Shown one piece after another: positions 41,629 through 49,652 of a stretch of DNA of 64,000 nucleotides; within the stretch, counting starts at the first letter, position 1, and every line of letters begins with the position of its first letter. Both the position numbers and the translations under genes were made by a program. The notes under the pieces were generated by a model. The model was not told the origin of the DNA. It ran no database searches and saw only the letters and a program-made list of their open reading frames with translations. The DNA comes from Cupriavidus sp. D39 (lineage in GTDB: Bacteria; Pseudomonadota; Gammaproteobacteria; Burkholderiales; Burkholderiaceae): NCBI RefSeq assembly GCF_026627925.1, contig NZ_JAPNLE010000006.1, positions 372,001 to 436,000 on the forward strand, written 5' to 3'.

Positions 41629-43440
41629 ATGGCCCATCAGATAACACTCCGTTTTGAGGACGGAGTGACCCGGTTCATCGAGTGCGAGGAGGGCGAGCGC
41701 ATCACAGACGCCGCCATTCGCGCCAAGATCAATATCCCACTCGATTGCCGTGATGGTGTGTGCGGCACCTGCAAGGCGGACTGCGAGTCCGGCGAATATG
41801 TTCTGGGCGACTGCGTGGAGGATGCGCTTACTCCGGAGGAGGCCAGCGCCCGCAAGGTTCTCACGTGCCAGATGAGCCCGCGTTCCGATTGCGTGATCCA
41901 GATCGCTACGAACTCCGATGTTTCGGGTACCGGCCCGTCCTCCTACAGGGGAAGGATCGCCGCTTGTCAACGATCGTCCGCCACCACCATCGCCTTCTCG
42001 GTCGAGCTCGAGAATCGCGAAGATCTCGGGTTCCTTCCCGGGCAGTACGTCAACATCCAGGTGCCTGGCACCGATCAGACACGGTCCTACTCCTTCAGCT
42101 CCGGGCCGTCCGAGCCGCAATTGTCCTTCCTTGTGCGCAATGTGCCTCAAGGCGCGATGTCGACCTGGCTCTGCGAAAGCGCCAAAGTAGGCGACCCGAT
42201 TGAGTTTCGCGGCCCGATGGGAAGCTTCTATCTGCGCCCCATCGAGCGGCCGGTGCTGTTTCTCGCGGGTGGCACGGGCCTCGCGCCGTTCCTCGCAATG
42301 CTTGACAAGGTCGTCGAGGACGGCGGCAGCCCGTATCCGATCCACATGATCCTGGGTGCGAACACCGATGAGGACCTGGTTGGCATCGACCGGCTTGAAG
42401 CTTATGCGCAGCGCTTGTCGAATTTCACCTATGCCTGCACAGTCGCCAGCCCCGAGAGTGCCTATCCCAACAAGGGCTATGTCACCCACCATATCGTCGC
42501 TTCCCAGCTCAACGGTGGCGATGCGGATGTCTACCTTTGCGGCCCGCCGCCGATGGTTGATGCGGTTCGCAGTTTTCTCTCTTCTGAAGGGCTAAGGCCG
42601 CGGAATTTCTACTATGAGAAGTTCGCCGGCACCGGCCTGGTGGTCCAGACCGGCGAAGAACGCGTCGCTCCGGTTGATGTCGACGAGGCGTTCGATTTGC
42701 GCATGGCTCTCGAGCTGGGGGCCGCGCAATTGACCATGGGCCGGCTGTCGAGCGAGCAGTTAATCACTTTTCGGAAGCTCGCCGAGGCGACGGCGCCGTT
42801 CGTCTCCGGGCGACGCTTTACCGACATTCCGCGTTACATCGAGGCAAACCACGCCTTCCACATGTTCGCGATCGAAGCTTCCGGGAACGCCCAGCTGATC
42901 GCGCTCTACCGGCAACTGGCCGTGCAGGACTACATCGCTCGCGCGCTGACCGACCAGATCGAGATCGTCGGCGATATCGTCCAGCAGCACCGGGACATTG
43001 TCGCCGCCTTCGAACTGGGCGACCTGAACGCGGCGCGGGACGTGATTGCGCTGCACGCGCTCCATTCCAAGGCCACGATGAGCCGGGCGCTGGAGCGTAT
43101 GGCGATGGGCAAGACGGCGCCCATGGTCGCAGCGCTCCCCTCTCCCCGTCTGCTGTGCCGCAGAGCGCGCCGCAGGTCTGCCCATTCACGGCCAAGACCC
43201 TTCCGGCCTATTCACACGAACTGGACTGGCCCGAGGGGTTGGAGCCATTCAAGGTGGTCGATGACGGCTCGCAAGGCGACCCTTACGAGCACTACCGCTG
43301 GATGCGGGAGCATGCGCCGGTGCTGCGTTGCCAGTCGGCGACTTCGGACGTGTGGTTCCTCTCGCGCTATGACGATGTCTACCAGGCGATCCGCAACCCG
43401 AAGCTGTTTTCCTCCGAGGTCGTCAGCCCGCCACCGCTGA
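41629..43440 (+). CDS. Class IB-type ferredoxin reductase (BenC-like) fused to an FCD domain
   Basis: Residues 1-95 form a plant-type 2Fe-2S ferredoxin domain with cysteines in DCRDGVCGTCKADC and LTCQ. Residues 100-335 form an FAD/NAD(P)H reductase with RSYSFSSGP (FAD), GGTGLAPFLAML (nucleotide) and CGPPPMV. It should pass electrons from NAD(P)H to the neighbouring P450. After residue 345, DEAFDLRMALELGAAQL to ALERMAMGKTAP (about 155 residues) matches an FCD domain, the ligand-binding part of GntR regulators, with the FHMFAIEASGN and IVQQHRDIVAAFELGDLNAA blocks. The start at 41629 follows GAGGAG. The frame runs 95 codons beyond the FCD domain over the P450 start, in the wrong frame for P450; a missing base in the C-runs at 43137-43147 may hide the true end or a three-part fusion. 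Confidence 0.8.
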   Translation: MAHQITLRFEDGVTRFIECEEGERITDAAIRAKINIPLDCRDGVCGTCKADCESGEYVLGDCVEDALTPEEASARKVLTCQMSPRSDCVIQIATNSDVSGTGPSSYRGRIAACQRSSATTIAFSVELENREDLGFLPGQYVNIQVPGTDQTRSYSFSSGPSEPQLSFLVRNVPQGAMSTWLCESAKVGDPIEFRGPMGSFYLRPIERPVLFLAGGTGLAPFLAMLDKVVEDGGSPYPIHMILGANTDEDLVGIDRLEAYAQRLSNFTYACTVASPESAYPNKGYVTHHIVASQLNGGDADVYLCGPPPMVDAVRSFLSSEGLRPRNFYYEKFAGTGLVVQTGEERVAPVDVDEAFDLRMALELGAAQLTMGRLSSEQLITFRKLAEATAPFVSGRRFTDIPRYIEANHAFHMFAIEASGNAQLIALYRQLAVQDYIARALTDQIEIVGDIVQQHRDIVAAFELGDLNAARDVIALHALHSKATMSRALERMAMGKTAPMVAALPSPRLLCRRARRRSAHSRPRPFRPIHTNWTGPRGWSHSRWSMTARKATLTSTTAGCGSMRRCCVASRRLRTCGSSRAMTMSTRRSATRSCFPPRSSARHR

Positions 43441-44417
43441 CGTTCCTGACGCTGTTCGATGCGCCCGACCATACGCGGTTACGCAAAGTCGTCCAGCCAT
43501 CCTTCCTGCCGCTGTCGCTCGATCCCTTTATCGAACAGATCGAGCAAAGGGCGGAGGACCTGCTCGACGCGATGATCGCTAAAGGCGGCGGTGACGTCGT
43601 CAACGATTTCGCCATCCCGCTCAGCATCTCGACCATCTCCACGATGATCGACGTGCCGAACGAGGATGAGGAGAAAATGAAATTCTGGTCGGACGAGACC
43701 TTTAGCTACTTCGGGCGCCTCGCCCGCAATGCGCCGGGGACCGGCACCGACGAGCAGAGCGCGCAGGCCTTCTTCGCTTACCTGAAGGAGGCGATGGAGC
43801 GGCTCGTTCGCACCGGCAGCCAGTCGATCGGCGGGCATATCGCGCGCATGTGGAAGGACGGGCTACTTTCGGAAAAGGAAGCAAAGGAGCTGTGTGCCTT
43901 CGTCTTCATCGCTGGGCACGACACTACGACGATCCTTGTGGCCAATGCATTTCGCATGTTCGCCGAACAGCCGAATCTGCTGGGACGTATCCGCGAAAAC
44001 CCCTCCGACGCTGAGCGTTTCGTCGAGGAGGTGGCGCGCTATCGTGGTACCGTGCAGCGTGTGAGCCGCATCACCACCGAGGCGACCACTGTCGCGGGCG
44101 TTGATCTGCCTAAGGGTGCGGTGGTGCGATTGCTGCTGTCGGCTGCGAACCGCGATAGCCGCAAGTTTGCCAACGGTGAGACGTTCGACATCGACCGTGA
44201 TTCCAGCGGCCACCTGGGTTTCGGCAATGGCATGCACAAATGCCTTGGCGCGCCGCTCGCCAAGCTGGAGACGCTGGTCGCAACGAAGGCTCTGGCCCGC
44301 AAGGTTGGCGATATTGCGCTCGATCCGGCAAGGCCGATCCAGTATGTGCGGGGCAACAATCTGACCAACTCCGGGCCGGAGCACCTGTTCGTGAAGCTGG
44401 GTAGGTTATCGGCCTAA
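43155..44417 (+). CDS. Cytochrome P450 monooxygenase, candidate cycloalkane-carboxylate 4-hydroxylase
   Basis: This 420-residue soluble bacterial P450 has the I-helix oxygen-activation motif AGHDTTTILVANAF, the E-x-x-R pair in EEVARYRG, and the haem ligand loop HLGFGNGMHKCLGAPLAKLE. All catalytic hallmarks are intact. It lies directly behind a ferredoxin reductase, its likely electron donor. I use the GTG at 43155; the true start may be an ATG at 43123 if one base is missing near 43140. By context its substrate is a cyclic acid hydroxylated at C4, but sequence alone does not fix this. It converges on the araC-type gene 36 bases downstream. Confidence 0.88.
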   Translation: MPQSAPQVCPFTAKTLPAYSHELDWPEGLEPFKVVDDGSQGDPYEHYRWMREHAPVLRCQSATSDVWFLSRYDDVYQAIRNPKLFSSEVVSPPPLTFLTLFDAPDHTRLRKVVQPSFLPLSLDPFIEQIEQRAEDLLDAMIAKGGGDVVNDFAIPLSISTISTMIDVPNEDEEKMKFWSDETFSYFGRLARNAPGTGTDEQSAQAFFAYLKEAMERLVRTGSQSIGGHIARMWKDGLLSEKEAKELCAFVFIAGHDTTTILVANAFRMFAEQPNLLGRIRENPSDAERFVEEVARYRGTVQRVSRITTEATTVAGVDLPKGAVVRLLLSAANRDSRKFANGETFDIDRDSSGHLGFGNGMHKCLGAPLAKLETLVATKALARKVGDIALDPARPIQYVRGNNLTNSGPEHLFVKLGRLSA

Positions 44418-44452
44418 ACCAGGCCTAAACCGGATGAGGGGGCGAGGTCGAG

Positions 44453-48428: not shown

Positions 48429-48464
48429 AGCATCTGAACAACTGATAACCAAGGAAAAGGAAAC

Positions 48465-49652
48465 ATGCGCACCACGCGTACCCAAGTAGGCATCATTGGT
48501 GCCGGCCCGGCGGGGCTACTGCTGTCGCACATTCTGCACCTGCAGGGCATCGAGTCGGTTGTACTAGAAAGACACAGTCGCGACGACGTCGAGGCGATCA
48601 TTAAGGCCGGCGTGCTCGAACAGGGCACAATCGACCTCATGAACGAGATCGGCGCCGGCGAGCGGATGATGAAGGAAGGCTTCCGCCACGAAGGCATCAT
48701 CCTGCGCTTCGACGGGCGCGACGAGCGCATCGACTTCCCGTCGCTCACCGGCGGCAAGTCGGTGATGATCTACGCCCAGCACGACGTCATCAAGGATCTC
48801 ATCAAGGTGCGTCTGGACAGCGGCGGAGACATCCGCTTCGAAGCCAAAGACGTCAGCGTCTACGATCTCGACACCACCAAGCCGAAGATCCGCTACCGCG
48901 ACAAGGCGGGCGTAGTCGAAGAGATCACCTGCGATTTCATCGCCGGCTGCGACGGCACCCAGGGTATCTGCCGGCCGTCCATCCCCGCGGGTGCGCTTAA
49001 GGTCCACGAGCGTCTCTACCCCTTCGGCTGGTTCGGCATCCTATGCAAGGCGCCACCCTCGTCCGACGAGTTGATCTACGCCATGCACGAGCGCGGATTC
49101 GTGCTCGTCAGCACCCGCTCACCCGACATCCAGCGCATGTACTTCCAGTGCTCGCCCACGGAGAAAATCGAGAACTGGTCCGACGATCGCATCTGGGCCG
49201 AATTTCGCGCACGGCTCGCGACCCAGGACGGGTGGGTGCCCCAGGAAGGGCCGATCTTCAGCAAGACCGTCATCGGCATGCGCAGCTTGGTGGTCGAGCC
49301 GATGCGTTACGGGCGCCTGTTCCTCGCCGGCGACTCGGCACACGTGGTACCGCCGACCGGCGCCAAGGGGCTGAACCTAGCTGCCACAGATGCGCAGATT
49401 CTCGCCCGCGCGCTCACTGCATACTTCAAATCCAACCGCAGCGACCTGCTGGACCAGTACTCGGAGACCGCGCTGCGGCGCATCTGGAAGGCGACGCGCT
49501 TTTCCTGGTGGATGACCTCAATGCTGCACACCTTCCCCGGCACCGACGAGTTCCAGAACCGCTTGCAACTATCGGAGCTGAACTACGTGACCAGTTCCCG
49601 CGCCGGGGCCATGGCCTTGGCGGAGAACTACGTTGGACTGCCGATTGAATAA
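48465..49652 (+). CDS. pobA: 4-hydroxybenzoate 3-monooxygenase
   Basis: This 395-residue flavin hydroxylase converts 4-hydroxybenzoate, NADPH (or NADH) and O2 to protocatechuate. The FAD motif [16 protein letters not shown] is followed by the [21 protein letters not shown] block specific to PobA, then the DG motif ([13 protein letters not shown]) and the GD motif ([23 protein letters not shown]). Tyr and Ser/Arg residues that bind the substrate's phenol and carboxylate lie in the [16 protein letters not shown] segment ([16 protein letters not shown]). Length agrees with the family (about 394). It is the most secure assignment of the island and fixes 4-hydroxybenzoate as its product. Confidence 0.95.

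Follow-up and report, generated by a model that had tools for sequence, protein, structure and literature searches.

The stretch of 64,000 nucleotides analysed here (Cupriavidus sp. D39, contig NZ_JAPNLE010000006.1, positions 372,001 to 436,000 of the forward strand; the window) carries at positions 41629–49652 a catabolic gene cluster that very probably belongs by descent, as a plasmid-borne member, to the P450CHC-type clusters for aerobic cyclohexanecarboxylate breakdown by aromatisation. The assignment is based on gene content, gene order, homology, catalytic residues and recurrence in other genomes, from which we infer the substrates, the performance of both desaturations by one enzyme, the regulation and the role of a NIPSNAP-family protein. 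Judged from its reading frames, the window copy of the cytochrome P450 (P450) protein that would start the route is a broken P450CHC-type fusion and not a working member.

According to PMC9795900, the aerobic route consists of C4 hydroxylation by a P450, dehydrogenation and the action of two consecutive desaturases, giving 4-hydroxybenzoate and then protocatechuate. P450CHC from Paraburkholderia terrae KU-64 (Yamamoto, Hasegawa, Iwaki 2022) is described in a review (PMC9687028) as a self-sufficient cyclohexanecarboxylate hydroxylase with the domain order [2Fe-2S]-FAD-FCD-P450, and members of P. terrae are referred to as known cyclohexanecarboxylate degraders, with citation of the KU-64 paper, in PMC9302171. 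In an intact cluster, NADH electrons would pass from FAD to [2Fe-2S] and on to heme within one polypeptide, and the fusion would hydroxylate cyclohexanecarboxylate at C4. The alcohol would be converted to 4-oxocyclohexanecarboxylate by a short-chain dehydrogenase/reductase (SDR), after which a flavoprotein of the 3-ketosteroid 1-dehydrogenase (KstD) family would take the hydrogens that flank the ketone, on either side of the symmetric ring. The resulting dienone would tautomerise to 4-hydroxybenzoate, the presumed substrate of PobA in forming protocatechuate; an AraC-type regulator, transcribed in the direction of the fusion and divergently from the SDR gene, would control the cluster. This succession of P450, SDR, KstD-like desaturation and PobA had been proposed in the initial annotation; homology to P450CHC and to the chc clusters of actinobacteria gives it good support.

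Domains were called with Pfam and subfamilies with the curated cut-offs of NCBIfam. The cluster opens on the forward strand with a BenC-like [2Fe-2S]/FAD reductase-FCD part (41629–43110; Fer2, FAD_binding_6, NAD_binding_1 and FCD domains), the front of the fusion, followed by the P450 part (43155–44417, +; p450 domain, identified also by identity to fused relatives and by motifs) and by a frame-broken AraC-type regulator gene on the reverse strand (44453–45383; Pfam and relatives). Behind these lie, all on the forward strand, an SDR gene (45480–46352; adh_short) for a proposed 4-hydroxycyclohexanecarboxylate dehydrogenase, the gene of the KstD-family flavoprotein (46387–48093; FAD_binding_2, with support from a tree and from residues), a proposed 4-oxocyclohexanecarboxylate desaturase, a NIPSNAP-family gene (48090–48428), the start of which overlaps the end of the desaturase gene, and pobA for a probable 4-hydroxybenzoate 3-monooxygenase (48465–49652; FAD_binding_3 and NCBIfam PRK08243). 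Pfam and the open-reading-frame translations bear out the initial annotation here, all of the genes that it listed being present in the order given; its list lacked the AraC regulator as well as a PcaK-like remnant and a Mutator-family transposase that follow pobA. A DNA search of plasmids yielded 13 records matching the query. On a plasmid of Paraburkholderia sp. FT54 (NZ_CP134198.1) 6.5 kb (80% of the query) recurred at 87.3% DNA identity with a like gene order (fusion, AraC, SDR, desaturase, NIPSNAP), so the arrangement is not due to chance; four further Paraburkholderia plasmids matched 48% of the query at 89–92%. The FT54 locus differs from the window in that its fusion and AraC genes are single frames and in that no pobA match was found in the 30-kb stretch. 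Within the genus the cluster was found, at 87% DNA identity, in one other of 40 genomes (the window's own among the 40), and the closest protein relative of the desaturase was from Cupriavidus sp. CuC1 (98% identical).

The order ferredoxin, FAD/NAD reductase, FCD and P450 is kept in the window across two adjacent frames (Pfam), and in this copy the domains do not all lie on one polypeptide: the reductase-FCD frame has no stop before 43440 and is not in register with the P450, which is read in another frame. As described in PMC9687028, P450CHC of KU-64 is likewise betaproteobacterial, has the same domain order and function and performs the first pathway step; the window copy is unlike it in being frame-broken between FCD and P450. 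The betaproteobacterial FCD-fused version, which the initial annotation had thought to be new, was therefore already known. Its 'FCD-fused reductase' was right as to the domains present but not as to a separate protein, the frame being the front of a fusion that is a single frame in relatives and is broken here; the idea of an odd two-domain reductase-FCD protein of its own was rejected on the same ground.

In FT54 the reductase, FCD and P450 form one annotated protein of 929 residues, which exceeds the cut-off of the BenC model NF040810; the P450CHC gene of KU-64 is reportedly named chcA. In genome contigs, 80 loci were found by a scan; of these and the plasmid loci, 27 (five plasmid and 22 genome loci) had a close reductase match and were informative on the frame. 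All 25 loci with a full-length match held single frames of 924–958 residues with no internal stops over the matched range; these loci were chosen for the full-length match, so the figure describes the intact form and not the frequency of breakage. In locus L034 the fusion was cut by the contig end. Kluyvera georgiana (L035, 4064–5641) had a reductase-FCD frame with no P450 match in the next 10 kb, unlike Kluyvera cryocrescens (L032), in which the fusion was whole. Twelve of 299 family genomes carried the fusion, as one frame in 11 and as two frames only in the genome of the window. The window P450 was 94–96% identical to five fused plasmid relatives and 64–72% identical to stand-alone actinobacterial P450s, mostly from Arthrobacter and Sinomonas; its translation contained the heme-cysteine, ExxR and I-helix motifs, which were invariant in 14 fusion proteins.

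A protein search with the fusion gave 597 matches among 8000 scored candidates, and 120 of the 597 were listed. Among the matches listed, the five-domain architecture occurred in Burkholderiaceae, Sphingomonas, Rhodovulum and Pseudocitrobacter, and reductase-FCD proteins without a P450 occurred in actinobacteria. Two further arrangements were seen: a metagenomic protein of 848 residues (P0095; 67% identical over 44% of the query) joined a Pyr_redox_2/Reductase_C-type reductase to a P450, and P0101 and its kin (actinobacteria and metagenomes; 858–935 residues) carried an SDR domain in place of the P450, from which it appears that the FCD-bearing reductase has been joined to different partners.

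The chc cluster of Sinomonas cyclohexanicum ATCC 51369 was compared through Sinomonas sp. ASV486 (L041), in which the order is desaturase, Dabb, major facilitator superfamily (MFS) transporter, desaturase, SDR, SDR, IclR, P450, reductase and ferredoxin (Dabb, the second SDR, reductase and ferredoxin assigned by Pfam; MFS and IclR assigned by eye, here and below). This agrees with the published order, which is reportedly chcC1XTC2B1B2RAaAbAc in S. cyclohexanicum (work of Yamamoto from 2021). The L041 proteins exceeded the NCBIfam cut-offs for ChcC1 (1003.9 against 1000), ChcC2 (1024.3 against 900), ChcB1 (448.9 against 400) and ChcB2 (410.5 against 350). The window resembles this cluster in its P450 (about 70% identical to that of L041), in its homologous SDR and desaturase and, following PMC9795900, in the chain of steps. 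It differs in having one desaturase, one SDR, a fused P450, an AraC regulator and a NIPSNAP gene, whereas L041 has two desaturases, two SDRs, a separate ferredoxin and reductase, Dabb, IclR-type regulators and an MFS gene. The window SDR was 92% identical to that of FT54, 43–44% to the SDRs at the ChcB2 position of two Sinomonas loci and 34–35% to those at the ChcB1 position; the desaturase was 42–43% identical to ChcC2 and 35% to ChcC1 of two Sinomonas loci. On these comparisons the SDR and the desaturase are homologous to the Chc proteins and probably have similar functions.

The best solved relatives of the desaturase were the KstDs 7p18 and 4c3x. Tyr119, Tyr318, Tyr487 and Gly491, the catalytic residues of Rhodococcus erythropolis KstD1, are all kept in the window desaturase, with Tyr in place of Phe116, so the type of chemistry is kept as well. 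A tree of desaturases was calculated from 33 sequences (577 of 633 columns, LG+C20, midpoint root). Among its labelled rows the fusion-locus desaturases, the ChcC1-like proteins, the ChcC2-like proteins and the two solved KstDs each formed one group. In an approximately unbiased (AU) test, with the 12 sequences from Burkholderiaceae and the one from Kluyvera constrained as a set, a clade with KstD was rejected (p = 0.000147) and a clade with the ChcC2-like proteins was not (p = 0.436), the ChcC1 and ChcC2 groupings having been named after the tree was seen.

The genome of the window contained no second full-length homologue of the desaturase, only a truncated copy and weak hits. The truncated copy lies at 437566–438588 of the contig (L129:5540–6625), 1.5 kb past the window end and about 17 kb downstream of the cluster; it is 65% identical over residues 4–344 and is cut off beside a frame for a Mu-type transposase C-terminal domain and a TniB gene. 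The ChcC1 cut-off was reached by no protein in the 12 fusion-carrying genomes (0/12). In two of these with an intact fusion (G055 and G248) the cluster desaturase was the only match to the ChcC1 model above 25 bits (56 of 76 and 56 of 65 candidates scored); the other nine fusion-carrying genomes contained additional genes of KstD-like type. Should the route operate in G055 and G248, both pairs of hydrogens would probably have to be removed by a single enzyme, which is plausible because 4-oxocyclohexanecarboxylate is symmetric. The two genomes thus suggest that one desaturase may perform both ring desaturations.

Recurrence was followed by tblastn of the window proteins on 43 of 93 loci. The reductase-FCD and P450 parts were found together in 26 loci (one partial), 15 of which also carried the desaturase (at least 55% identity) and NIPSNAP. 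In 14 of these 15 the SDR gene held the same place, the Kluyvera SDR lying on the other strand, and NIPSNAP followed the desaturase directly in 14 and at a distance of 1.2 kb in Kluyvera; a pobA-like gene lay within the fetched stretch in seven. Among the 299 family genomes the desaturase (E ≤ 1e-150) was present in 55, the SDR (E ≤ 1e-60) in 41 and the fusion in 12, and all 12 fusion carriers had both of the other genes (Fisher p = 5e-10 for the desaturase and 9e-12 for the SDR, not corrected for kinship). The three genes were together in nine carriers; in the remaining three the SDR-desaturase pair was elsewhere and less similar to that of the window (SDR 63–64%, desaturase 67–69%). The SDR adjoined the desaturase in 39 of the 41 SDR genomes (coordinates read by eye), 27 of the 39 being without the fusion. 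In seven fusion-less desaturase loci chosen across an identity range of 51–80% (L132–L138), NIPSNAP was right behind the desaturase in six (59–79% identity), with the SDR in front in five of these; no NIPSNAP match was found in the seventh and most distant, and a pobA-like gene was near two of the seven (49% and 60%). The SDR-desaturase-NIPSNAP unit, which is less known, is therefore also found in the absence of the P450, and the latter looks to have been added to a unit that already existed. A transfer of the P450 later than the unit would fit its greater identity to actinobacterial counterparts compared with the SDR or the desaturase.

Several observations weigh against the cyclohexanecarboxylate assignment. 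The window SDR scored 173.8 bits with the ChcB2 model NF053701 (cis-4-hydroxycyclohexanecarboxylate dehydrogenase; cut-off 350), and the desaturase scored 548.6 bits with the ChcC2 model NF053677 (4-oxocyclohex-2-ene-1-carboxylate 5-dehydrogenase; cut-off 900) and 303.9 bits with the ChcC1 model NF053676 (4-oxocyclohexanecarboxylate 2-dehydrogenase; cut-off 1000), so the window proteins are not filed as ChcB2, ChcC2 or ChcC1. Generic SDR and FAD models outscored the Chc models, the best NCBIfam model for the desaturase being a generic subfamily model (719.9 of 747). The tree was midpoint-rooted with long KstD branches, and a clade with ChcC1 was only nearly rejected in the AU test (p = 0.058). 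Of the 26 fusion loci, 11 lacked this type of desaturase in the stretch covered; conversely, 43 of the 55 desaturase genomes (some desaturases only 45–52% identical) had no P450, so the substrate may be wider. The window pobA is only 51–59% identical to the pobA of other fusion loci, and the genome of the window yielded no protocatechuate 3,4-dioxygenase beta subunit (pcaH, TIGR02422) over the cut-off. Lastly, the fusion and the regulator are broken in the window, and as assembled the route therefore probably does not start.

The model scores can be read in favour of another substrate. That the cluster acts on some other ring acid (a naphthenic acid, or a cyclohexane or cyclohexene carboxylate bearing substituents) and yields 4-hydroxybenzoate or a substituted analogue is unlikely: other reactions can feed the SDR-desaturase pair, as the 27 of 39 side-by-side genomes without the P450 indicate, and the ChcC1, ChcC2 and ChcB2 equivalog cut-offs were not reached, but the P450 domain is highly conserved and pobA stands beside the cluster here, in seven of 15 fusion loci and beside two non-fusion copies. 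Still less probable, to the point of being nearly negligible, is a true 3-ketosteroid 1-dehydrogenase in a steroid-degrading cluster. The desaturase shares its sequence family and catalytic residues with the solved KstDs, and three KstD-named models (449.5, 403.8 and 363.9 bits, all under their cut-offs) outscored the ChcC1 model; against this, the ChcC2 model outscored all three, and pobA follows. The initial annotation had named beforehand a grouping with true KstDs as refuting its proposal, and the desaturase was found to lie outside them (AU p = 0.00015); steroid degradation by the cluster was rejected on this test. Descent from a cyclohexanecarboxylate cluster is the preferred explanation.

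The breaks in the window copy are subject to different explanations. The AraC gene is broken into a C-terminal piece (44453–45139) and an N-terminal piece (45210–45383), convergent with the fusion and divergent from the SDR gene. By tblastn it was found behind the P450 on the opposite strand in all 26 fusion loci, and in 25 of 26 relatives the pieces lay in one stop-free frame. It is also frame-broken on a plasmid of Paraburkholderia sp. PGU19 (L010, 14848–15770), behind an intact fusion, and there the break falls in nearly the same region of the gene as it does in the window. The ratio of nonsynonymous to synonymous substitution rates (dN/dS) was 0.10–0.15 for the reductase-FCD part (three comparisons), 0.07–0.15 for the P450 part (four comparisons) and 0.06–0.24 over both parts and the other genes across valid comparisons; purifying selection is thus still visible on both parts of the fusion, and any damage would be recent or an assembly error. 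It is accordingly a distinct possibility, if not the one that we expect, that the breaks are assembly or sequencing errors in an intact and working cluster, and public assemblies do hold truncated P450CHC-type proteins with out-of-register ends (P0066, P0087 and P0242). However, three neighbouring genes are damaged (fusion, AraC and PcaK-like), the PcaK-like truncation beside a transposase is not explained by sequencing error, the second desaturase copy downstream is cut off beside transposition genes, and the AraC break recurs in PGU19. It is improbable that the reductase-FCD and P450 parts act as two separate proteins in two-component style. FCD-P450 proteins without reductase domains do exist in Kluyvera and Pseudocitrobacter (P0089–P0094, among the matches listed), and the actinobacterial P450 relative adjoins separate partners; yet these split proteins may in turn derive from broken fusions, whole ones being present in K. 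cryocrescens and Pseudocitrobacter corydidari, and in the window the P450 frame begins with GTG and has its first ATG within the conserved part, no ribosome-binding site was seen upstream by eye and the reductase-FCD frame continues into out-of-register sequence. With frame breaks in the fusion and the regulator, a truncated PcaK-like gene and no protocatechuate 3,4-dioxygenase beta subunit over the cut-off, the island may be decayed or may hold assembly errors.

The window PobA scored 600.7 with PRK08243 (cut-off 351) and 520.2 with TIGR02360, just under its cut-off of 538.7; its best solved relative was 7on9, aligned over residues 5–395, and its gene was the only full-length pobA match in the genome. 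Behind pobA lies the PcaK-like 4-hydroxybenzoate transporter (MFS) remnant (49667–50527, +), which covers only profile positions 110–316 of 437 (NCBIfam), followed directly by the Mutator-family transposase gene (50870–52120, +; Pfam), presumably IS256-like. The protocatechuate 3,4-dioxygenase beta subunit was over the cut-off in 31 of the 40 genus genomes, and a gap may lie behind its absence here, the genome being 97.84% complete. A single LigA match in the genome was rejected as the enzyme of protocatechuate cleavage, since NCBIfam assigns it to gallate dioxygenase. With the broken frames and no beta subunit over the cut-off, it is doubtful whether the route works to support growth of this strain.

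The window lies on a contig (C6) of 544,708 bases in a genome of 7.74 Mb in 11 contigs. It contains, by Pfam, a TrfA replication protein gene (30053–31036), a ParA-type ATPase gene (32052–32747) and genes for type IV secretion ATPases of T2SSE (11628–12677) and VirB4 type (13372–15819). As genes for replication, partition and transfer share the contig, the cluster is likely to be carried by a plasmid, as the initial annotation had held. About 0.8 kb before trfA, 10.4 copies of a 46-base repeat (94% match) occupy 28747–29227; this array is possibly an iteron or partition site, and can also be read as an open frame. A DDE transposase gene (39255–40631; Pfam) lies just upstream of the cluster, and the stretches around it look, by eye, like pieces of a TPR-type protein. 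A second catabolic stretch runs from 53017 to 62386 and on into 435800–437000 of C6, ending at the truncated desaturase. It comprises an enoyl-CoA hydratase frame with an AMP-binding part, MaoC, a TctC receptor, MmgE/PrpD, both electron-transfer flavoprotein subunits, a GntR-FCD regulator, a type III CoA-transferase and a thiolase-like gene, and is possibly another ring-acid route.

In an alignment of 14 sequences His 411, 454 and 476 were kept in all 13 FCD-bearing proteins, and the position four before the first FCD histidine was Asn in 12 of the 13; metal-binding FCD regulators have Asp at this position. In a Paraburkholderia youngii protein (P0071, about 60% identical) most of the FCD is gone, with reductase and P450 still in one chain. 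Literature searches returned, among the matches listed, no text with 'FCD domain' for FCD-fused P450s and only off-topic titles for NIPSNAP paired with a desaturase and for 4-oxo- or 4-hydroxycyclohexanecarboxylate. Taken jointly, and tentatively, SDR, desaturase and NIPSNAP might form a minimal aromatisation cassette that is both older than the P450 and separable from it, in which one KstD-family enzyme would replace ChcC1 and ChcC2 and NIPSNAP would stand in the place of Dabb, perhaps aiding dienone tautomerisation; the FCD, through its three-histidine site, might sense carboxylate or metal and gate or dimerise the P450.

Why a regulator-type FCD sits between reductase and heme domains is open to test, with the P. 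youngii fusion as a natural control, and single-desaturase ring aromatisation and the role of NIPSNAP have been made testable as well. By comparison, the cluster supports a route by which soil betaproteobacteria would remove alicyclic (naphthenic-type) acids aerobically and which would be carried on a plasmid.

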